IMG/VR virus record: IMGVR_UViG_3300025130_000002
Coordinates: 1-41,588 of that record
Source of the DNA: a virus
Strand: one strand, 5' to 3'
DNA length: 41,588 nucleotides
The position numbers and the translations under genes were made by a program. The notes under the pieces were generated by a model, which ran no database searches, had not been told where the DNA came from, and saw nothing but the letters and a program-made list of their open reading frames with translations. Positions 29,973 through 41,588 of this stretch are shown piece by piece. Position 1 is the first letter of the stretch; each line of letters starts with the position of its first letter.

Positions 29973-29980
29973 CGTTGTTC

Positions 29981-31525
29981 GTGCCAGTTCCTCTCAGCAC
30001 GGCCCGGGTGGACTCGGTGCCCCGGTACGTGCTCAGCAGGCCGCCGTCGACCGACGACGAGCTGCATGCCCTGGTGGAGATGATGTGGGGCGTCAGCATC
30101 CCGAGGCGCCAGGTCTGCCCCGGCCACGTGGCGCCGTTCACCGCGTTCGCGCACGCCTACTTCGCCCGCCGCCCCAACTACGCGGTCTGGTACGGCAGCC
30201 GCGGCACCGGCAAGTCCTACCTGCTGGCCGTGCTGGCGCTGACGAAGGCCTTCGTGGACCACGTCGACGTGACCATCCTGGGCGGCTCCATGGCCCAGAG
30301 CGCCAACGTGCACGAGCACATCCGCAACTTGCTGGCTCGTCCCGGTGCTCCTCGGTGGGCCCTGGTCAAGAACATCGAGACGGAGATCATCACCACCTCC
30401 GGCAACTACATCCGGCCGCTGGCGGCGTCCCCGACCACGGTGCGCGGCCCGCACCCCAGCCTGGGCCTGCTGGACGAGATCGACGAGATGGACCCGGTCA
30501 TCTACTCCTCGGCGATGGGCCAGGCCCTGAAGAAGGAGAACCCGCTGGGGGTGGAGATGGACGAGTACGTGGTCGCCTCCAGCACCTGGCAGCACGCCGT
30601 CGGGACCTTCGCCACGGTCAAGCGCGAGGCGCAAGAGCGGGGCCTGCCCGTGTTCTCCTGGTGCTACCAGGAGCAGCTCAAGCCGCACGGCTGGATGGAC
30701 TCCGACTACATCGACCGCAAGAAGGCGTCGGTGCCGGCGGAGATGTGGCGGGTCGAGTACGACCTGGGCGAGCCGTCAGGGGAGAACAGCGCCTTCGACG
30801 TCGCCAAGCTGAACGCGGCCTTCGCGGTGATGGACTTCGTCAGCGAGCGCCACGCCGACGGCGACGACGAGTGGGTGGTGGCCGAGCCGGACCTGAAGGT
30901 CGCCTCCTACGCGGCCGGCGCGGACTGGGCCAAGGCGAAGGACTTCACCGTCATCGTCGTGGTCCGCACCGACGTCGTCCCGCACCGGCTGGTGTACCTG
31001 CGCAAGGTCCAGCGCCGCTCCTGGCCGACGATGATCGGCTACTTCAACGACGTCTGCCGCCGCTACGGGGTCGGCTCCCGCAGCGCCCACGACGCCACCG
31101 GCATGGGCAACGTCATCTCCGACCTGGTGGACGACCGCACCATCAAGGTGCAGATGATCGGCCAGAAGCGGATCACGCTGCTGACCGACTACATCACCGC
31201 CGTCGAGAACGGCCGGTACCTGATGCCGGCCGGCACCTGCCTGTACAACGCCCACAAGGACACCTCGGTCGATGACGTCTTCGCGACCTCCACCCGCTAC
31301 GACGCCCACATGCCCGACGAGGTGGTGGCCATGGCGATGGCGCACCGGGCCGTCACCCGGGCCGCCCCGGATGCCGCCGGGCAGACGGTCAAGCGCGCCG
31401 AGGCCGACAAGCCCGAGTGGCTGAACCAGGCCTCCCGGTCCGGGCCGGCCAGCCGGGGCTACCGGGTCGGTGACATCTACCTGGAGGAGGAGGACCCTGA
31501 CGTCGGCGTCGTCTATCTCGACTAG
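29981..31525 (+). CDS. terL: Terminase large subunit
   Basis: A 514-residue packaging motor and nuclease. Walker A GSRGTGKS (72-79) and Walker B LGLLDEIDE (161-169) with coupling residues beyond form the ATPase. The C-terminal RNase H-like nuclease has GADWAKAKDFTVIVVV (D315) and HDATGMGN (D371), with a third acidic residue likely in the AHMPDEVVAMA segment. It cuts concatemers and pumps DNA through the portal encoded two genes on. GTG at 29981 is preferred; TTG at 29975 is two codons upstream. No ribosome site is seen, in line with a leaderless start. Confidence 0.93.
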   Translation: MPVPLSTARVDSVPRYVLSRPPSTDDELHALVEMMWGVSIPRRQVCPGHVAPFTAFAHAYFARRPNYAVWYGSRGTGKSYLLAVLALTKAFVDHVDVTILGGSMAQSANVHEHIRNLLARPGAPRWALVKNIETEIITTSGNYIRPLAASPTTVRGPHPSLGLLDEIDEMDPVIYSSAMGQALKKENPLGVEMDEYVVASSTWQHAVGTFATVKREAQERGLPVFSWCYQEQLKPHGWMDSDYIDRKKASVPAEMWRVEYDLGEPSGENSAFDVAKLNAAFAVMDFVSERHADGDDEWVVAEPDLKVASYAAGADWAKAKDFTVIVVVRTDVVPHRLVYLRKVQRRSWPTMIGYFNDVCRRYGVGSRSAHDATGMGNVISDLVDDRTIKVQMIGQKRITLLTDYITAVENGRYLMPAGTCLYNAHKDTSVDDVFATSTRYDAHMPDEVVAMAMAHRAVTRAAPDAAGQTVKRAEADKPEWLNQASRSGPASRGYRVGDIYLEEEDPDVGVVYLD

Positions 31526-31575: not shown

Positions 31576-33624
31576 ATGGCACAGATGCGGTCGCAGTATT
31601 CCTCGAACGAGCGCGCTGAGCGGCGCAAGGACGTCTACCTCGGCAGTGCTACTGGCGCCGGGCTGCTCGGGCTGGCGCACCTGGACGCCAACACCGTCCC
31701 GGGGTCGCTGACCCGGATGCGTGAGGCGGCTCGCAACACCGAGCTGGTCGTCAACGGCACGCCCCGTCCGGGCACGGCCAAGATGGTCGGCGCTCTGTCG
31801 GCGATGCGTCCGATCGGGGTCAAGCACCTGCTCGCAGCCGGGCTGCTGGGCACCGGTGCCGGTGCGGCCAGACGGGTGATGCGCAACAACGAGCCTCGCC
31901 AGATCGTCCCCACCGGCGCCATCGCGCTCAGCAAGGTGGCCTCCGCTGTCCCCGGCGGTTCACCGCACCGAGACACCGACCGCCGGCGCCTGGCCTACGC
32001 CGTCGGCCAGGGCACGGCCCTGGGCGGGGCGGGTCTGGCCGGCGGTGGTCTGATCGCCATCAATCGGTCGGGGTACCAGCGCGGGCTGGCTGAGACGAGC
32101 CGGGGCTTTGCCAACCGCCTGCACACCAGGTCGACGCAGATTCCTGACGCCGCCCGGGCCGCGGCCTTGCAGCAGCGGAGCACGTCCATGGACCTGGTGG
32201 CCCAGAATGTGTACGACAGGGCGAAGAAGCTGCGCCGACGCGGGCGGATCGCCCTGGGCGCCGGGCTGGGGCTGACCGCCGGCGGCAGCCTGCTGGCGCA
32301 CGTGGCCAGACCACGCCGCACCGGCGGGCCTACCGTGACGAGCCCGTCGATGTCGGAGGTCGCCAAGTGGGCTCGAGGCGACACGCCGCGCTCGCGGCGC
32401 CGGCGCGTGGTCGCCGGTACCGCCGCCGCAGGACTGGGGGCGGCGACAGCCATCGGCGGCCAGGTCGCGATCCAACGCGCCCGGACGCAGCGCGACCTGG
32501 CCGACCTGGAGCAGCTCACGGCGGCCAAGCAGAAAGCTGCCTCCAGGAGCACCCTCGACCTGGCCACCTACCAGGCGAACCAGGCGACCAAGCTCCGGGA
32601 CCGGGCGATGCTACGGCCCACCAGCCAGGCCACGGACGCTATCGACGACATGCGCCAGGCGTACAACCTCATGAACTCGGCTCAGGCCCGCGCCACCCAG
32701 GCCAAGGGGTTCCACGATATAAGCACGGCCCGGCAGACCAAGGCCAGGATGATGTACGAGGGCGCGCGCAAGCTGCACCGACGAGGGCTGGCCGCCCTCG
32801 TGGGCGGGACGGGGGCCGCCGTCCTGGGCGGCGCCTGGGCGCACCACAACGAAGACAACGCCCGCCGCACCGGGGTCCGCAAGCTCGACGCCACCGAGCA
32901 CGTGAGCGGCCCTCGGCGCACCTGGCGCGAGGTCAAGAGCCAGACCTTCTACGGTCTGCCCAGCCACCAGGTCGCCCAGCTGAACCCGCAGCAGCGCTCC
33001 GAGGCGCTGGTCCGCTCGCTCCCTGACCCGGCCATCCCGCTCGTCGCCCCCAAGGGCGAGAAGGTCGCGGCCACGACCAGCCAGCTGGGCGCCAGCCTGA
33101 AGGGCGGTGCCATCGGCACGGCCGCCGGCGCCGCTGCGGGGCTGCTGGCCGGGGGACCGACCCGCTGGCGCGCTACCGGGCGCACGCTGAGAACGATGGG
33201 GCGGCTGGTCCAGCGGTCAGCCAAGGACCCGTCCCAGGTCGCCCGCCAGGCCCGGCTGCTGCGGGCGGTGCGGGCGTCGCGTCCTCGGGTCAACCCGCTG
33301 AAGGACCCTGAACGTCGGTCCGACCTGACCCGGGGCGCCATCGGCGGCCTGGTCACGTCCCAGGCGATCAACGTCTCCTCGGCGGCTCAGTCCAAGCGCA
33401 CCATCGCTCGCAACCCACAGGCGTGGGAGGAGCAGGACGCCAAGATCCAGCGCGTGGTGAACAAGCTCAGCAAGGCCGTCGAGCCCGACGTCGACCCGGA
33501 CGGCTTCGCCCGTCAGATGCAGGCCGAGGCGGCGCTGCGTGGGGCCTGGCCGCACCGCTCCGGCTGGGTCGTGGACACCGGCGCTGCCGTGGTGGCCGTG
33601 CCGTACCCGGACGAGCAGGGGTAA
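31576..33624 (+). CDS. Glycine-zipper multi-span protein of unknown function
   Basis: A 682-residue, strongly basic protein. At least seven Gly/Ala-rich hydrophobic segments of 15-22 residues (about 20-36, 83-97, 143-163, 224-243, 278-299, 404-421, 504-523) carry GxxxG-type spacing, such as GTALGGAGLAGGGLIAI, separated by Arg-rich linkers and one long helical stretch (300-400). This is the form of glycine-zipper proteins that insert in membranes. It sits between terL and portal, where a head protein is expected. Ejection or internal-core protein is the leading idea; an artefact of GC-rich composition is argued against by the clean alternation. ATG with GAGGTG. Confidence 0.6.
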   Translation: MAQMRSQYSSNERAERRKDVYLGSATGAGLLGLAHLDANTVPGSLTRMREAARNTELVVNGTPRPGTAKMVGALSAMRPIGVKHLLAAGLLGTGAGAARRVMRNNEPRQIVPTGAIALSKVASAVPGGSPHRDTDRRRLAYAVGQGTALGGAGLAGGGLIAINRSGYQRGLAETSRGFANRLHTRSTQIPDAARAAALQQRSTSMDLVAQNVYDRAKKLRRRGRIALGAGLGLTAGGSLLAHVARPRRTGGPTVTSPSMSEVAKWARGDTPRSRRRRVVAGTAAAGLGAATAIGGQVAIQRARTQRDLADLEQLTAAKQKAASRSTLDLATYQANQATKLRDRAMLRPTSQATDAIDDMRQAYNLMNSAQARATQAKGFHDISTARQTKARMMYEGARKLHRRGLAALVGGTGAAVLGGAWAHHNEDNARRTGVRKLDATEHVSGPRRTWREVKSQTFYGLPSHQVAQLNPQQRSEALVRSLPDPAIPLVAPKGEKVAATTSQLGASLKGGAIGTAAGAAAGLLAGGPTRWRATGRTLRTMGRLVQRSAKDPSQVARQARLLRAVRASRPRVNPLKDPERRSDLTRGAIGGLVTSQAINVSSAAQSKRTIARNPQAWEEQDAKIQRVVNKLSKAVEPDVDPDGFARQMQAEAALRGAWPHRSGWVVDTGAAVVAVPYPDEQG

Positions 33625-33633
33625 GGACCCTTC

Positions 33634-35262
33634 GTGCCCGCAGACTTCGTCACCGTCCCGTCCTCGAGCCTGCGTGAGGTCGGCGTCGACCAGAGCGGCG
33701 ACGTCGCCGAGGTCCTCTCCGTCGAGCGGCACAGCTCCTTCCTCGACGACCTGGGTGCCACCGGTCTGCGCCGTCACTCCGGCTACGTCGAGGAGCAGTT
33801 CCTCCCGCAGCTGCGCGGCCGCAAGGCGGTGGCCGTCTTCCAGGAGATGTACGACAACGAGCCCCTGGTCGGCGGCCTCATGCACGCCATCACCATGCTC
33901 GTGCGCAACGTCGGCTGGACGGTCAAGCCAGGTGGGTCGTCCAAGCGCGACGAGGAGGTCGCCCACTTCGTGGAGTCCTGCAAGGACGACATGGACAGCC
34001 CGTGGAGCGACTTCATCGCCGAGACGTTGTCGATGCTGCCCTACGGGTGGAGCTGGCACGAGATGGTGTTCAAGACCCGCGAGGGTCCGTGGAACCCCGA
34101 CCCGCGCCGTAACAGCCGCTACAACGACGGCCTGATCGGCATCCGCCGGCTGCCGATCCGGTCCCAGGACTCGATGGTGCGGTGGGTCTTCGACCAGAGC
34201 GGCGACATCCTCGGCATGGTCCAGCAGGCCGCGCCGGCGTACCGGATGGTGACCATCCCGCGCAGCAAGTCCCTGCTGTTCCGGCTCTGGGCCCCCAAGG
34301 GCAACCCGGAGGGCCGCTCGCTGCTGCGCAACGCGTACCGGCCCTGGTACATGAAGAAGCGGATCGAGGAGTTCGAGGCGGTCGGCGTCGAGCGCGACCT
34401 GGCCGGGATGCCGGTCATCAAGGTGCCCGCCGAGTACCTGTCCAAGAACGCCACCCCGGCGCAGAAGGAGACCGTCACCAAGATGCGCAAGACGGTGCGC
34501 TCGGTCCGGCGCAACGAGCAGGAGGGCATCGTCTTCCCGGTCGCCTACGACCAGGACACCCGTCAGCCGCTGTTCGACCTGTCCCTGCTCGGCTCCGGTG
34601 GCGGGCGGCAGTTCCAGACCCAGTCCATCATCGAGCGCTACGAGCAGCGCGTCCTGATGAGCGTGCTGGCCGACTTCATCATGGTGGGCCACCAGGCGAC
34701 CGGCTCCTACAGCCTGCACACCGACAAGACGGGCATCTTCCGCACCACGCTGAACGCCATCGCCTCCTCGATCGCCGACGTGCTCAACCGCCAGCTGGTG
34801 CCGACCCTGCTCCGGCTGAACCGGATGACCGACCTGGAGAAGATGCCCCAGTTCGAGCCGAACGACGTCGACAGCCCGGACATCGCCGTGCTCGGCCAGT
34901 TCATGCAGTCGATGGCCAGCATGGGTGTGCAGTGGTTCCCCGACGCCGAGCTCGAGCAGTTCGTCCGCAAGGCCGCCCGGCTGCCCAGGATGAGCGAGGA
35001 CGACACCAAGCGCGAGCAGCTGCTGGCTCGCCGGGCCGAGGCCACGCGCTTCATGCAGCAGCAGGCCGAGTACGTGCAGACCCGGGCGACGCTGCAGCAG
35101 ACGATCGGCGGGCTGGGTCCCGTCGTACCGACGCAGCCCGGGCCTGCCGGCTCGCCGCAGCCTGGGACCGGCGGCCCGGCGGTGCCCGGTGCGGCCGGTG
35201 CTCAGCCCACCGCCGTCGGCGCCGGCCAGAACGGTGCCACCCGCCAGCAAGCGGGGCGTTAG
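33634..35262 (+). CDS. Portal protein (DUF935/Mu gp29-like)
   Basis: A 542-residue dodecameric portal through which DNA enters the head. Family features: EEQFLPQLRGRKAVAVFQEMYDNEPLVGGLMHAIT near the N terminus, WSDFIAETLSMLPYGWSWHEMVFK, KSLLFRLWAPKGNPEGRSLLRNAY and a long helical stretch leading to FIMVGHQATGSYSL. The last 60 residues are a Pro/Gly/Ala-rich tail. GTG start with AAGGA seven bases upstream overlapping the previous stop. Length is usual for the family. Confidence 0.88.
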   Translation: MPADFVTVPSSSLREVGVDQSGDVAEVLSVERHSSFLDDLGATGLRRHSGYVEEQFLPQLRGRKAVAVFQEMYDNEPLVGGLMHAITMLVRNVGWTVKPGGSSKRDEEVAHFVESCKDDMDSPWSDFIAETLSMLPYGWSWHEMVFKTREGPWNPDPRRNSRYNDGLIGIRRLPIRSQDSMVRWVFDQSGDILGMVQQAAPAYRMVTIPRSKSLLFRLWAPKGNPEGRSLLRNAYRPWYMKKRIEEFEAVGVERDLAGMPVIKVPAEYLSKNATPAQKETVTKMRKTVRSVRRNEQEGIVFPVAYDQDTRQPLFDLSLLGSGGGRQFQTQSIIERYEQRVLMSVLADFIMVGHQATGSYSLHTDKTGIFRTTLNAIASSIADVLNRQLVPTLLRLNRMTDLEKMPQFEPNDVDSPDIAVLGQFMQSMASMGVQWFPDAELEQFVRKAARLPRMSEDDTKREQLLARRAEATRFMQQQAEYVQTRATLQQTIGGLGPVVPTQPGPAGSPQPGTGGPAVPGAAGAQPTAVGAGQNGATRQQAGR

Positions 35263-35541: not shown

Positions 35542-36324
35542 ATGGCGTGGTACCGCCAGAACCGGGACGACCAGGTCGCCGACTACCGGGCCAAGCAGCG
35601 CCAGAAGGTCCTGCTCACCGGAGCCGGCGTGCTGGGTCTGGCCGGCGGTCTGGCTCGCGCTCCATGGGCTGCCAAGCACGCGGTCCGAGCGGCGCAACGG
35701 GCCGGTCCCAGGGTGGGTGTTCGGGTTCCGCAGGTCTCACCCCGGACCCGGACGAGGCTGGCCGACATCGAGCGCACAGCCACCGAGACCTCCATGCCGC
35801 TGGCGATCGCCTCGGGAGCTCTGGGCTCGCTCTCGAGCCTGACCTACGCCAACCGGCTCAAGCGGGAGACCAAGACCGAGGGAGAGAAGCTGGGCCTGGT
35901 CAAGAACCACGTCGAGCCGGACCAGCCGCCCCGCGACCGGCAGCGGCTGGTGGCGGCGCGGGAGCGGGCCAACGACGACCTCTGGCGCCAGTACGTCTCC
36001 GCCGACGCCCGCAACGCCCATGACGAGGTCCTGCCGACCTACTCCCGCCGCTACGGCCGCCAGGCGCTGGCCGGCACGGGCGTCGGCGTCGCCGGTGGTG
36101 TCACCGGTCTGGCGGCCGGTCGGGCCGCCGTCAGGGCGCGGCGCGCCGGTGCCGGCACCGGCAAGGTGGGCGCGCTGTCGGCGCTGGCCGCGCTCGGCGC
36201 CGGGTCGACGCTGGCCGGGGGCGTGGCCACCAGCCGTGCCCTGCGCCGCGGCGCCGAGATCGAGGCGTCCCGCCGCGCCATCCGCGCTCGGGGGTACCAG
36301 CGGGCCCTGGACGCCGTAGGCTGA
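35542..36324 (+). CDS. Second glycine-zipper protein
   Basis: A 260-residue basic protein with Gly/Ala-rich segments at about 23-40, 93-112, 174-196 (GTGVGVAGGVTGLAAG) and 208-231 (LAALGAGSTLAGGVA), separated by Arg-rich helical linkers (QRLVAARERANDDLWRQYV). Architecture and composition match the 682-residue protein before the portal, so the two are probably related or work together. Stops 18 bases before the 1176-residue gene. Membrane insertion or internal virion role inferred only. Confidence 0.55.
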   Translation: MAWYRQNRDDQVADYRAKQRQKVLLTGAGVLGLAGGLARAPWAAKHAVRAAQRAGPRVGVRVPQVSPRTRTRLADIERTATETSMPLAIASGALGSLSSLTYANRLKRETKTEGEKLGLVKNHVEPDQPPRDRQRLVAARERANDDLWRQYVSADARNAHDEVLPTYSRRYGRQALAGTGVGVAGGVTGLAAGRAAVRARRAGAGTGKVGALSALAALGAGSTLAGGVATSRALRRGAEIEASRRAIRARGYQRALDAVG

Positions 36325-36342: not shown

Positions 36343-39300
36343 ATGCAGCCGCAGACCATCGTCCTGGCGCAGGCAGCACTCGACTACGCCGCCGCCGGCG
36401 AGCACGCCGAGCGTGCCCGGTCCGTCTCGGCCGACCTCGACGTGGTGTCCGAGCGGATCCGCAAGGCCAAGCAAGGGCTGGGCCGGGGCTACGTCGCCGA
36501 GGTCTCCAAGGGGACCTACCCGCCGGACGAGTACCAGACGATGGCGACCTGGCTGGCCGACCTGTCCCTGCTGGTCGCCGTGGCCAAGGCCGACGCCGAA
36601 GGCCTGAGCACCGACAAGTACGAGCAGTGGGCCGGGCGTCGGGTCAAGCGGGTGGGCGGCCGCTTCGCCCGCAGCGTCACCCCGGCCGGCACCTCGTCCT
36701 TCCCGGCCGGGGCCGGCCGGACTCGCCGGCTTCGTGAGCGGGTCGGGACCGCCCTGCCTGCGGGGCTGGAGTGGGACGACCGCACCGGCGGGGTCCGGAC
36801 CGAGCGCACCGGCGTCCCGCTGAGCGCGCAGACCCGTCAGCGAGCCGAGCAGTGGCTGGGCGCCCAGCGCGTCGCCGACGAGCTCGAGCGCGAGATCAGG
36901 CAGGCGTTCGGCCCGCAGCAGGCCAAGTTCATCAACCTCAAGGTGAACATCGTGGACCCGCGGGACCCGAGCAAGGTCATGGTCACCGACGTGAACCAGT
37001 ACGACCCGGCCATGGGGCAGGCCGTCTCGGTCGGGTTCGACGTGGACCAGCAGGCGCTGGCGTCGGCTCCGGACGACGTCAAGCGCCAGGTGCGCGACCG
37101 GATGTACCTGATGACCGGCTTCGGCCCCGGCGGCGACACGCTGTCGGCCCTGGACGAGCCGGTGAGCCGGATGCTGGGCACCCTCGGCCCGCCCGGGCAG
37201 CTGCGCGACGACAAGCGCTCGACCTTCGCGACCATGGCGACCAACGCCGGCAACATCCTGCGCGGCTTCGGCCCGACCCAGAATGTCGGGGAGGCCTTGC
37301 GCGCGCTCGGCACGGCGGGCAACTCGGCCACCGCCGAGCAGCTGCAGCCCTACGTCGAGCGAGCCGCGGCACGCTACGTCGGCACCCGGGTCCGCCCGTC
37401 CGCCCCGACGCAGCAGCTCTTCGACGGCGAGTCGGGCGCGAAGCTGGAGGCGCTGTCCAGCGCTACCAGCCTGGCCAGGGTCAAGCAGATCGTGGCCAGC
37501 GCCCGTGCTGCGCTGGGCAAGAAGCCCGAGGACGAGACCACGCGCGGGCTCGACCCGGTCTTCGCCTCGACGGCCACCAGGCTGGGCCTGCGCCAGTCCG
37601 GCGACCAGCTCATCCTCGGCGTCCGCAGCGACCTGGGCGCGCTGGCGATGGGCCGCTCCCTGCCGGACGACCCGATGCTCAACGTCTTGAGCATGAAGGC
37701 GGGCAAGACGCTGCCGAGCCGCGGCCTGGTCATCGGCGAGGACGGCGAGGTCGCCTACGAGGCGATCGGCTCCGCCGACGACCACTACACCCCGTTCAGC
37801 GCCGCGATGCTGTCCTCGATGGAAGGCGGCCAGTTCGTCCGGACCCGCCAGCGCGGCGGCCCCAGCGTCGAGGACGTCCGCACGCTGCTGTCCACCGGCG
37901 CCCGGATGGCCACCGTCGTCAGTCCGTCCGGGGTGTTCGAGCTCGAGCTCGCCCCTGAGGCCCGAGGGATGAAGCGCTTCGGGCCGCAGCTGCAGTCGAT
38001 GACCGACGCCTACGCCCGGCTGCTGGACACGATCGCGGTCAACGCGCTGGCCGACGCCAACGGCGCGCAGTACCTCGGCGCGCTGGACCCCGACGTCGTG
38101 GCCCGGATCGAGGCCAACGCCGCCCGCAACCCGGCCCGGGCGGACGAGATCCGCTCCCGCGAGACGGCCAAGGCCTACGCCGAGGCCGCGGCCAAGAGCA
38201 TCGACGTGGACCGGGACGCGCTGCGCGAGGAGAAGCTGCGCCTGGCCATGACCGAGATGACGGCCCGCGAGCGCGGCGAGCTGAGCCCCTCGGAGTGGGC
38301 CAACCGCGAGGTCGACCGCGAGATCGCGTCCCGGGTGCGCCCGCTGATGCTCAACGGCGAGGGCTACGCGCTGGCGCTGCGCACCTTGCAGGCGCGCTTC
38401 CCGCACATGATCCGCAGGGCCGAGTACCGCGACAGCCGCGACTTCGCCCGTGACCTGGGCATGTCCGGGCACGTCGAGGCGGGCCTGCCGCGCAGCGGCG
38501 GCAGGGACGCCGGGTACCTGCAGCCGGGCCGGGTGAAGACCTTCACCGGCAACCCGCGGACGCGCCTGGCCGAGCGGGCAGCCAGCGAGGAGGCTGCCGC
38601 CGCGGCCAGCGCCGCTGCCGGGCCGGGTGCCAAGAACGTCACCCCGCAGAACGAGAAGTCCACCTCCTCGGCCCAGGCTCCGGACGGCCGCGAGGTGTCC
38701 CGCAGCACCGAGACGGTCACGGGCGAGTCCACGCCGCTGGTCGCCGCTGCCGTCAACGCCGGCCAGGAAGCCATCCAGAAGCTGCGCTCGGCTGGTCCGG
38801 CCTACGAGCGCCAGATGGCCGAGATCAACGCCCAGCCCAACGGCTGGGCCCGGCTGATGGGGTCGCCGGCCACTGTCTCCGGTGACCCTCCGGTGCTCCC
38901 GAACACCTTCGCCGAGGCGCTGATGGGCCGGGCGCCGGAGAAGGTCGCGCCGCTCTACGCCGCGATGCGGCTGCAGCAGGGTCGGCTCAACGACCTGGTC
39001 GAGGAGTTCAAGTCCGAGCCGGCGCTGCTGACCACGCTGCTGTCGATGCCCGAGGACGACGTCAGCACGCTGATGCGGTCCAACCTCATCACGATGTCCG
39101 ACGGCCAGGAGCCGACCAACTCCGACCACGACGCGGTCGCGCTGCGGGCCACCATCGCGGTCCAGTCGGTGGCGCTGCTGCACCACCTGGCCAACCCGGC
39201 CTTCGTCCGGGCGCCGTCGGACCCGCACGCGCTGGCCACCCTGGCGCTGGACCAGGTGCCGCTGCCCGACGAGCTGGACGGTGTCGCCGACGCCGCGGGC

Positions 39301-39873
39301 TACGTCGAGTGGGCCGTGAGCGACCAGCCGTCGGCGCAGCAGGCCCGGCTCGGCCGGGTGCTGATCTCCGAGTTCGCCGAGAACGATGTCGGCATCGACA
39401 TGCTCAAGGCGCTGATGGACGCCACCGCCACCATCGACAACGAGCTCGTCACCCTCGGCAAGGACCTGGAGGGCAAGGACGGCGAGAACGAAGCGGCCAA
39501 CGTGGTGTCCCACTTCGCGCGCAAGGACGACCTGCCGCCCGAGCAGGTCGCCGCCCTGTCCAGCGTCTTCTCCTCCGAGCGTGAGGCGGCGCTGGACTAC
39601 CTGCGCGGCGCGCTCCGGCTGGGCAACTCGACCCTGCTGCTGCAGGCGACGCTGGCCGGCGGTGGTGCCGACCCAAAAGCGCTCGCCGAGCTCTCGCGGA
39701 GGTTGACGCTGTCGACGATGCCGCTCGCGGGGTCTCTCGATGGGCTGAAGGCGTACGTGATGGTGGAGAAGTCCGACCCGGTGAGCAAGGCGATGACCAG
39801 ACGAGCCAGCTCGCGGGTCAGGCCGGGGGTCCCGTGGCAAGTGCTCAGACAGCGAGTGCTCTCGACCGGTTGA
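36343..39873 (+). CDS. Giant unknown virion-type protein (1176 residues)
   Basis: No family recognised by eye. The N-terminal third is mixed, with an early QYEQWAGRRV-like basic region (KYEQWAGRRVKRVGGRFA) and a beta section (KFINLKVNIVDPRDPSKVMV). The middle is mainly helical with long charged stretches (REEKLRLAMTEMTARERGEL). The C-terminal 400 residues contain a Ser/Glu linker (QNEKSTSSAQAPDGREVS) and helical bundles. No signal peptide, membrane span or catalytic motif stands out. AAGGAGGG ribosome site means strong translation. Size and place in the head operon suggest a large inner-capsid or ejected protein. It overlaps the AAA+ gene by 40 bases. Confidence 0.6.
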   Translation: MQPQTIVLAQAALDYAAAGEHAERARSVSADLDVVSERIRKAKQGLGRGYVAEVSKGTYPPDEYQTMATWLADLSLLVAVAKADAEGLSTDKYEQWAGRRVKRVGGRFARSVTPAGTSSFPAGAGRTRRLRERVGTALPAGLEWDDRTGGVRTERTGVPLSAQTRQRAEQWLGAQRVADELEREIRQAFGPQQAKFINLKVNIVDPRDPSKVMVTDVNQYDPAMGQAVSVGFDVDQQALASAPDDVKRQVRDRMYLMTGFGPGGDTLSALDEPVSRMLGTLGPPGQLRDDKRSTFATMATNAGNILRGFGPTQNVGEALRALGTAGNSATAEQLQPYVERAAARYVGTRVRPSAPTQQLFDGESGAKLEALSSATSLARVKQIVASARAALGKKPEDETTRGLDPVFASTATRLGLRQSGDQLILGVRSDLGALAMGRSLPDDPMLNVLSMKAGKTLPSRGLVIGEDGEVAYEAIGSADDHYTPFSAAMLSSMEGGQFVRTRQRGGPSVEDVRTLLSTGARMATVVSPSGVFELELAPEARGMKRFGPQLQSMTDAYARLLDTIAVNALADANGAQYLGALDPDVVARIEANAARNPARADEIRSRETAKAYAEAAAKSIDVDRDALREEKLRLAMTEMTARERGELSPSEWANREVDREIASRVRPLMLNGEGYALALRTLQARFPHMIRRAEYRDSRDFARDLGMSGHVEAGLPRSGGRDAGYLQPGRVKTFTGNPRTRLAERAASEEAAAAASAAAGPGAKNVTPQNEKSTSSAQAPDGREVSRSTETVTGESTPLVAAAVNAGQEAIQKLRSAGPAYERQMAEINAQPNGWARLMGSPATVSGDPPVLPNTFAEALMGRAPEKVAPLYAAMRLQQGRLNDLVEEFKSEPALLTTLLSMPEDDVSTLMRSNLITMSDGQEPTNSDHDAVALRATIAVQSVALLHHLANPAFVRAPSDPHALATLALDQVPLPDELDGVADAAGYVEWAVSDQPSAQQARLGRVLISEFAENDVGIDMLKALMDATATIDNELVTLGKDLEGKDGENEAANVVSHFARKDDLPPEQVAALSSVFSSEREAALDYLRGALRLGNSTLLLQATLAGGGADPKALAELSRRLTLSTMPLAGSLDGLKAYVMVEKSDPVSKAMTRRASSRVRPGVPWQVLRQRVLSTG

Positions 39874-40871
39874 GGTCGATGGTCGGCATGGCCGACGTCG
39901 CCCAGCAGGTGGTGGACGAGCTCGAGGTGCTGGCCGAGGAGCGCGAGCAGATGGGCCCGAGAGCCGCTGCCGACCGCCCGCCCGAGCACTTCGTCATCAC
40001 CGGCAACCCCGGCACCGGCAAGACCCAGCTGGCCAACATCCTGTCCGAGGCGCTGGCGGGCATAGACACCTCCCGGTCGGCCGACGTCGCCGTCTTCAAC
40101 GCTGCCCAGCTGTCCGGGTACGGCTACATGGGCGAGGCCGCCGCGGCGCTGACGTCCTTCCTGGACGCCAACCCCGGCAAGGTCATCCTGATCGACGAGG
40201 CGCACACGCTGGCCGACAAGGACTCCTACGGTCGCAGCGTCATGCGGGTGATCATCCCGCTGATGACCCAGAAGGGCCCGAACGCCCACCGGTTCATCTT
40301 CGCCGGCTACCCGGAGACCGAGCAGGCGCTGGGTGACCTGGACCCCGGCTTCGCCTCGCGCATCTCATCGACCTTCGCCATGCCCGACTACAGCACCGCC
40401 GACCTGCAGGCGATCGCCCGGACCAAGATCGTCGGGGACACCCTGGACCCGGCCGGTGCGCGGGCGCTGGACGCCGCGGTGTCCTCGCTGCCGGCGTTCG
40501 AGCGCAGCGTGCAGGAGAAGTTCGCCAACGGCCGCGGGGTCGAGCGGCTGATGGACCAGGTCCGCAAGGAGCGGCTGCTGCGCATCAGCCGGGCCCGCAA
40601 GGGCGGGGCGAGCTCGGCCGACATCGACTGGAACTACACCGCCGAGGACGTGACGGCCGGCTGGGGCCGGCTCAAGCTCGGCCCGTTGAAGATCCCGCGG
40701 GCCGCCAAGACGGCGGCCGAGCCTGCCGCCGAACCGAAGCCGACCCAGGTTCCCTCGCCTGCTGGTCGCCGCCCGGTGCCAGGTTCGGTCGCTGCTGAGC
40801 CGAACAGCTACTTCGGTTCGGCCAGCCTGGGTCCGGAGCCGAACCGCAGGCGCAAGCGGCAGACCATATGA
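39834..40871 (+). CDS. CbxX/CfqX-family AAA+ ATPase
   Basis: A 345-residue AAA+ protein. Walker A GNPGTGKT (57-64), pore-side region SGYGYMGEAAAAL, Walker B VILIDEAHTL (117-126), sensor 1 RFIFAGYPETEQAL and arginine finger FASRI (R176) match the CbbX/SpoVK/EccA subfamily that remodels protein complexes. About 85 C-terminal residues are a basic, proline-rich tail. GTG at 39834 overlaps the previous gene by 40 bases, so the pair is probably coupled. AAA+ proteins of this type are not a standard part of head operons; a chaperone or remodelling role on the giant protein is inference. Confidence 0.85.
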   Translation: MASAQTASALDRLRSMVGMADVAQQVVDELEVLAEEREQMGPRAAADRPPEHFVITGNPGTGKTQLANILSEALAGIDTSRSADVAVFNAAQLSGYGYMGEAAAALTSFLDANPGKVILIDEAHTLADKDSYGRSVMRVIIPLMTQKGPNAHRFIFAGYPETEQALGDLDPGFASRISSTFAMPDYSTADLQAIARTKIVGDTLDPAGARALDAAVSSLPAFERSVQEKFANGRGVERLMDQVRKERLLRISRARKGGASSADIDWNYTAEDVTAGWGRLKLGPLKIPRAAKTAAEPAAEPKPTQVPSPAGRRPVPGSVAAEPNSYFGSASLGPEPNRRRKRQTI

Positions 40872-41588
40872 GCGCGGCGTGGTGGGACACCGAGGAGCGA
40901 ACCTATGCGGTCCTGGACAGCGTGGACGACCGTGATACCGACGTCGGTGCGGGCGTGGTCGCCCTGGGCCTGCATGGTCTGGGAGCGGCTGCTCTTCGCC
41001 GCGCTGCACCGTCGCTTGCGCTCGACCCTGGCACCGTTGTCACCGCTCTCGACCAGGTGGATCTCGGACCTGTCGGCAAGGCATGGCGGCGCGTCGGCGG
41101 TGCGGATGACGATCTCGCGCTGATGAAGTCCGACGCCGACGTCGCGGCGTTCCGGGTCATCACCACGCTGCGGCACGCCGGGCTGGACCCGGTCGAGGCG
41201 ACCGAGCGGGCGGCCGAGGTCTACGGCCTGGACCCCAAGGACGCCCTGGGCGTGGCCACCCGGTTCGGTGACGCCGACCGGACGGTCTACGCCGCGGCCG
41301 CGCTGCAGGCGCTGATGCGGTCCTGCGCGGGCAGCGGGTCGCTGACCGGCGCGCTCGGCAAGGCCTACGAGCGCAAGGGCTTTCATGGCGACGACCCGGA
41401 CGAGCGCGACGAAGGTGGCCGGTTCGCCCCCACCGGGAAACGACCGCCGCGTCCGACCGCCGGTGCTCGCCAGCCCCGCTCGCCCGCCGCTGCGCAGGCC
41501 GCGCCAGCCCAGCCCGCACCGGCGCAGCCCGCCGCAGCACCGGCGCGTCGGCCCAAGGTGGGCGAGTACGTCGCCGGCAGCGCGGAGG
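40868..41588 (+). CDS. Partial head-operon protein, cut by window edge
   Basis: Open from ATG at 40868 (ATGA overlap with the ATPase stop) to the end without a stop; 240 residues visible. It begins MSAAWWDTEERTYAVLDSVD, has an alpha-helical part (AVLDSVDDRDTDVGAGVVAL; TTLRHAGLDPVEATERAAEVYGL), then DERDEGGRFAPTGKR followed by a Pro/Ala/Gln-rich linker. The RDxxGRFA-type motif followed by a low-complexity linker is common in phage head maturation or structural proteins, from memory. The rest lies outside the window. Confidence 0.55.
   Translation, partial: MSAAWWDTEERTYAVLDSVDDRDTDVGAGVVALGLHGLGAAALRRAAPSLALDPGTVVTALDQVDLGPVGKAWRRVGGADDDLALMKSDADVAAFRVITTLRHAGLDPVEATERAAEVYGLDPKDALGVATRFGDADRTVYAAAALQALMRSCAGSGSLTGALGKAYERKGFHGDDPDERDEGGRFAPTGKRPPRPTAGARQPRSPAAAQAAPAQPAPAQPAAAPARRPKVGEYVAGSAE

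Follow-up and report, generated by a model that had tools for sequence, protein, structure and literature searches.

The head operon and its giant protein

The stretch analysed here, referred to as the window, is a 41,588-base IMG/VR virus record (IMGVR_UViG_3300025130_000002), which is probably incomplete. It carries a head operon in which the gene of a giant protein, named BIG in the following, overlaps the reading frame of an AAA+ ATPase. The features of the region are:

29975..31525 (+), terminase large subunit (PHROG 9, E 6e-17)
33634..35262 (+), portal protein (PHROG 113, E 3.5e-84; Portal_Mu, 8e-35)
36343..39873 (+), BIG, the 0-frame product of 1176 aa (ORF), a head-operon protein of unknown fold
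39658..39667 (+), Shine-Dalgarno-like GGCGGTGGTG directly upstream of the shift site, a likely stimulator
39672..39678 (+), slippery heptamer C_CCA_AAA followed by G, a candidate -1 programmed ribosomal frameshift site
39678..40871 (+), extension in the -1 frame, with 397 aa following the shared Pro-Lys
39679..39728 (+), region of the hairpin stimulators of relatives; the fold in the window is no stronger than background
39834..40871 (+), ORF as delimited in the initial annotation, its GTG being a possible internal start
39840..40676 (+), folded AAA+ module (AF2 model, Foldseek)
40868..41588 (+), next head-operon gene, overlapping by ATGA and truncated where the window ends (full length 969 aa, L002:11035-13944)

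The ATPase had been annotated from the beginning as a resident of a head operon, and its surroundings agree with this: the terminase and portal genes lie upstream of BIG in the window, and in an overlapping contig (L002) the ATPase is followed by a 969-aa gene and then by an XkdF-type protease (PF14550, E 1e-18). In keeping with the coupling that had been proposed with the next gene, the stop of the ATPase frame and the start of that gene share the ATGA at 40868-40871. The gene after the ATPase occupies the MuF position of relatives, and MuF matches are found at the same place in L020 and L036. It contains the motif AYERKGFHGDDPDERDxGGRFA twice (L002:11035-13944; window 40868 onward), and RDxxGRF-like motifs are also seen near the N-terminus of BIG in relatives. 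Three ORFs of the operon (window 31576-33624 and 35542-36324, and L002:14713-15957) show basic helices alternating with glycine/alanine-rich hydrophobic stretches (RRRGRxALGAGxG), and none of the three matched a family.

A search with the portal gave 44 related loci, in which those bearing the ATPase share the order portal, small genes, BIG and ATPase; in each of them the ATPase lies in the -1 phase of BIG, and its frame extends back into BIG without a stop. With a BIG profile, relatives were found to be encoded in at least 162 IMG/VR stretches, 80 of which were fetched. The family counts given below refer to 63 IMG/VR loci with BIG and downstream sequence, a set that includes a few near-copies and from which L009 was left out though fitting. 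The portal gene lies upstream of BIG in 51 of the 57 BIG loci with room for it, and a protease gene lies downstream in 48 of 48.

Relatives of BIG are found in uncultured phages of IMG/VR only, as a profile search of GTDB genomes and single-sequence searches of cultured phages returned none; in Arthrobacter and Microbacterium phages whose portals are related, both BIG and the ATPase are missing from the corresponding place. The best-conserved core of BIG spans approximately residues 345-730 and is modelled with an AF2 pLDDT of about 90. By sequence, BIG has no relative in Pfam, PHROG or the PDB, where matches stay at chance level, and a fold search of the PDB gave no match. The same search in BFVD returned one uncultured homologue, followed by weak, short matches to minor capsid proteins, which were not taken as proof. 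Gene order, namely the synteny with portal and protease, suggests that BIG is a head protein.

An AAA+ module of the CbbX/SpoVK/EccA branch

The ORF at 39834-40871 had initially been described as a CbbX/EccA-type ATPase, which motifs, profiles and fold confirm. It contains a Walker A motif, GNPGTGKT (40002-40025), a Walker B motif, VILIDEAH, the sensor-1 context FAGYP and the Arg-finger context FASRI, and the AAA+ module also holds a sensor 2 and a pore-loop-like GYMGE. Walker A and B, sensor 1, the Arg finger, sensor 2 and the aromatic pore-loop position are all conserved and, with these motor motifs intact, the ATPase is active-looking. The extension as a whole consists of a disordered linker of about 55 aa, the CbbX-type AAA+ module and a basic/proline-rich tail, and its residues 57-335 are modelled with an AF2 pLDDT mostly above 90.

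The ATPase matches Pfam AAA above the cut-off, and the NCBIfam models of SpoVK, CbbX and EccA at 1e-22 to 1e-24. In a profile search of solved structures, CbbX (3syk/3zuh) is the best match (E 1e-83) and EccA1 (9lur) reaches 1e-74; Foldseek on the ATPase model also puts CbbX 3syk/3zuh at the top. Motifs and fold thus assign the module to the AAA+ ATPases of the CbbX/SpoVK/EccA branch, of which CbbX is known to remodel large assemblies. Although it shares with this branch the best solved-structure matches and the conserved motor motifs, in the window it reaches 78-84 bits where the equivalog cut-offs are 423-467, and it appears here as the C-terminal tail of a phage head-operon protein. CbbX proper, the rubisco activase, was rejected at 83 of 459 bits (TIGR02880) and by the head-operon context; EccA of type VII secretion, with its N-terminal TPR domain and ESX locus, at 78 of 467 bits (TIGR03922), the AAA part alone being aligned and BIG being the N-terminal partner; and SpoVK at 84 of 423 bits (TIGR02881).

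In a tree, the BIG-linked ATPases form a weakly supported branch of their own outside the CbbX, EccA and SpoVK-like references, with the ATPases of the window and L141 as long branches of unsure placement and that of the window among the most divergent. More distant ATPases of the CbbX/SpoVK/EccA type are carried, on different branches, by other phages that have no BIG (Emery, G and Adler). In the cultured Mycobacterium phage Adler (L144:5011-6912), the EccA-like AAA ATPase is located among hypothetical genes and groups with EccA, not with the BIG-linked ATPases. On plasmids, the closest relatives of the L039-type ATPase (L153, Streptomyces sp. SAT1 plasmid) are the C-terminal modules of Streptomyces parallel beta-helix proteins, which are another instance of a CbbX-type motor as a fused tail.

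A candidate frameshift site between BIG and the ATPase

Relative to BIG, the ATPase lies in the -1 phase, in a frame that stays open back to 39585, within BIG. The 40-base overlap with the 1176-residue gene noted in the initial annotation is correct if the GTG is used, but it does not mark the 5' limit of the frame. Inside the overlap of the two open frames lies C_CCA_AAA, the only in-frame X_XXY_YYZ heptamer of the window BIG. The same scan gave this heptamer as the sole answer in all of the first eight loci, and other X_XXY_YYZ heptamers are absent from most BIG genes. Among the 28 aligned sites, the base after the heptamer is always G, and in most of them a GGTGG-type element at -14 to -5 precedes the octamer CCCAAAAG. 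Hairpins follow most of the 28 sites (mean z -1.5 versus same-gene windows) but not that of the window, where the downstream RNA fold is not significant (z +0.2 versus same-gene windows, z +0.6 versus shuffles).

Among 75,017 codon positions of BIG, in-frame CCCAAAA occurs 31 times, always at the BIG/extension junction, and once in each of the other two phases. In the portal, terminase, protease and next gene it is found in frame twice in 88,663 codon positions, and the enrichment at the junction holds across a G+C content of 43 to 70%. Among close relatives, third positions diverge by 28% over the 900 nt preceding the site and by 12% in the overlap (Fisher p 1e-9), a drop that is expected if both frames are used. 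The in-frame heptamer inside the ORF overlap, its conservation beyond chance, the dual-frame constraint and the likely stimulators (the GGTGG element at most sites and, in most relatives, a hairpin), all of them read from the DNA, argue for -1 frameshifting, which would occur at this site at some frequency.

The ATPase is encoded with BIG in 27 of the 63 loci, and the heptamer lies between the two in every one of these. In 22 loci, the window included, the ATPase is in the -1 frame and CCCAAAA is found 96-210 nt before the BIG stop (22 of 22). The -1 frame opens just 3-12 nt 5' of the site in many loci, and ten of the 22 have no start codon (ATG, GTG or TTG) between this opening and the ATPase core. 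In the other five loci (L107, L120, L121, L124 and L141), the polarity is the opposite one: the BIG ORF itself matches the ATPase profile, the motor being fused in frame to the C-terminus of BIG, CCCAAAA is kept between the BIG body and the ATPase in all five, and the -1 frame meets a stop 14, 6, 3, 3 and 33 codons after the heptamer, respectively. L107, with its site approximately 230 codons before the ATPase, is a looser case than the other four. The default product of these loci would be BIG-AAA, and a slip would yield BIG alone. Since both polarities are kept, it appears that these phages require the two forms at a defined ratio.

Another five loci carry the heptamer, as CCCAAAA in four of them and as GGGAAAA in L022, and other -1 products of 62-300 aa with no ATPase. 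In this sister clade, extensions of 193-300 aa, mostly helical, replace the ATPase (L019:17811-18392, L022:17412-18005, L095:10235-10879 and L111:8803-9705), and in L101 the shift site is present with an extension of just 62 aa. By C-terminal module, the 63 loci divide into 27 with the ATPase, five with other extensions and 31 with none. About half of the BIG loci have no ATPase; it is not essential to BIG in general, and the motor is dispensable in some lineages. The frameshift seems to be a slot for exchangeable modules. In the BIG tree, the rows with a frameshifted ATPase (22) and those with other extensions (five) group together, the latter as one clade; when the in-frame cases are included, the presence of the ATPase needs four changes and that of the heptamer three. 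The window is a long branch in this tree, with a best identity of 28%, which makes its retention of the exact heptamer telling.

Past the shift site, the 0-frame tail of BIG (window 39679-39870 and relatives) carries a V-x-S-K-x-D-P-L-(x)-R-R-x-x-G-L-P-like motif; because it is kept in several lineages, the unshifted C-terminus also looks functional. A second motif, G-x-L-V-P-T-G/S, recurs in the ATPase extension, either within the linker or at the C-terminus (e.g., L006:11220-11360 and L079:12130-12181), as well as near the C-terminus of the upstream 745-aa ORF in L022 (4422-6659) and in the downstream 370-aa ORF of L111, and is perhaps a protease site or a docking peptide. One record of 135,953 bases, IMGVR_UViG_3300027749_000047 (L049/L068), holds two related, non-identical BIG-ATPase regions about 67 kb apart, and would be either two joined genomes or an unusual double genome.

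The ATPase is, with high confidence, the C-terminal part of a BIG-ATPase frameshift fusion and not a separate gene. As deduced from the sequence, the feature very probably extends over 36343-39678, shifting -1 into 39678-40871, and its product would have approximately 1509 residues. The initial annotation had described a separate gene overlapping BIG and starting at 39834, where the frame has a GTG. A free ATPase made from this GTG, or from a later ATG, by translational coupling with BIG would leave CCCAAAA irrelevant; it would be in keeping with the overlap of the two frames, with coupling being common in phage operons and with the GTG sitting 5 nt before the predicted fold. It is nevertheless very improbable, given the ten of 22 relatives in which no start codon is available before the core, the five that encode the ATPase in frame with BIG, the presence of CCCAAAA in 27 of 27 and almost never elsewhere, and third positions that are constrained throughout the overlap. 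From this pattern across relatives, the true N-terminus of the ATPase is very probably BIG itself, and the separate gene had to be given up, with some internal initiation at GTG 39834 being possible. An assembly or sequencing error, that is, a real in-frame fusion with an artificial one-base deletion in some contigs, could appeal to the five loci in which the in-frame fusion is real, but its probability is negligible: the same -1 arrangement at the same heptamer recurs in 22 loci from different samples and lineages, a pattern that refutes it, the 0-frame tails after the heptamer are conserved, and an error would not create CCCAAAA.

The tie between the ATPase and the giant protein that the initial annotation had suggested is supported by these data. 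Its suggested check for co-occurrence and adjacency was run and, wherever the ATPase occurs in the BIG loci tested, BIG is encoded with it (27 of 27); members of the BIG-linked lineage were found neither away from head genes nor without a BIG homologue.

Proposed role and relation to known systems

In the proposed mechanism, ribosomes translating BIG would meet CCCAAAAG about 200 nt before its stop. Most of them would presumably continue and produce BIG of 1176 aa, and a fraction would slip back one base, keep the Pro-Lys and read the flexible linker and the whole AAA+ module of the CbbX/EccA type; the result would be BIG-AAA, with approximately 1509 aa. The motor may act on BIG, or BIG may serve to anchor or target it. 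BIG may be a minor protein of the head or its interior, close to the portal vertex, and a minority of its subunits could gather their AAA+ modules as a hexameric ring on the BIG assembly, which would remodel or thread protein in head assembly, internal-protein loading or ejection. Hexamerisation on BIG, location in the virion and the substrate are putative elements of this scheme, and the remodelling role in the head is offered tentatively, as the likeliest use though somewhat short of probable. That the heptamer, whichever its polarity, fixes the proportion of subunits with and without the motor, with a CbbX-type AAA+ ring built into the head or portal vertex, is conceivable but doubtful.

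It may instead be that BIG-AAA is a packaged effector, injected from the virion in the manner of polyvalent proteins, whose motor would work on proteins or defences of the host once the phage has entered. The position between the portal and the MuF-site gene or protease is typical of such effectors (PMC5512222) and the C-terminal module is exchangeable (ATPase in 27, other in five and none in 31 loci), but the text of the polyvalent-protein survey has no mention of AAA+ modules (PMC5512222), BIG matches no Pfam or PHROG domain, and a set stoichiometry of two forms fits assembly better; this role is possible though short of probable. BIG-AAA as an assembly-phase chaperone, which would thread or remodel scaffold, portal or MuF-site protein in the procapsid and be absent from the finished virion, is rather unlikely. 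The remodelling of large assemblies by its CbbX, EccA and SpoVK relatives, the head-operon position and the analogy with the frameshifted tail-assembly chaperones G/GT (PMC5009743) speak for it; against it, BIG is in all cases also a product of its own, and its size greatly exceeds that of known assembly chaperones.

Among other frameshifted proteins, a -1 shift in dnaX, aided by an upstream Shine-Dalgarno element, gives long and short forms of an AAA+-bearing protein (tau and gamma). The in-frame BIG-AAA loci resemble it in that a slip would stop early and give a shorter form; however, the AAA+ part is present in both dnaX forms, and the BIG shift would decide on the presence of the motor. 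Conserved A_AAA_AAR shift sites are also found in the AAA+-related magnesium chelatase (PMC5009743), although the proteins of both systems differ from BIG-AAA. In lambda G/GT, a minority of copies gain a C-terminal domain by a -1 shift near the gene end (PMC5009743). There, as here, the shift lies near the end of a structural-operon gene and extends the C-terminus, but BIG belongs to the head operon and not to the tail, the parent protein is approximately 1100 residues long, what is added to it is an enzymatic AAA+ motor, and the polarity is reversed in sister phages. MuF-linked or polyvalent packaged proteins are, like BIG, large and multidomain, and their genes neighbour those of portal and MuF (PMC5512222); yet no domain common with BIG is detectable, and the survey text mentions neither AAA+ modules nor frameshifts (PMC5512222).

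Frameshift-made C-terminal extensions, as in lambda G/GT, and CbbX-type motors are already known separately; no report of an AAA+ frameshift fusion in a phage head was found in the literature, covering open-licence papers. Most frameshifts known from phages tune tail chaperones or extend capsid proteins. In BIG, the presence of an ATP-driven remodelling motor on a giant protein of the head operon appears to depend on the shift and, as the same heptamer is kept when default and shifted products swap, control of the ratio is directly testable. For annotation, the ATPase of the BIG family is to be called as part of BIG and not as a separate gene. An AAA+ ring in the head or portal vertex, if true, would be the first protein-remodelling AAA+ motor fixed in a tailed-phage particle, and the link between frameshift and ATPase offers a first way into a large family of head proteins that is otherwise without recognisable features and comes from uncultured phages.
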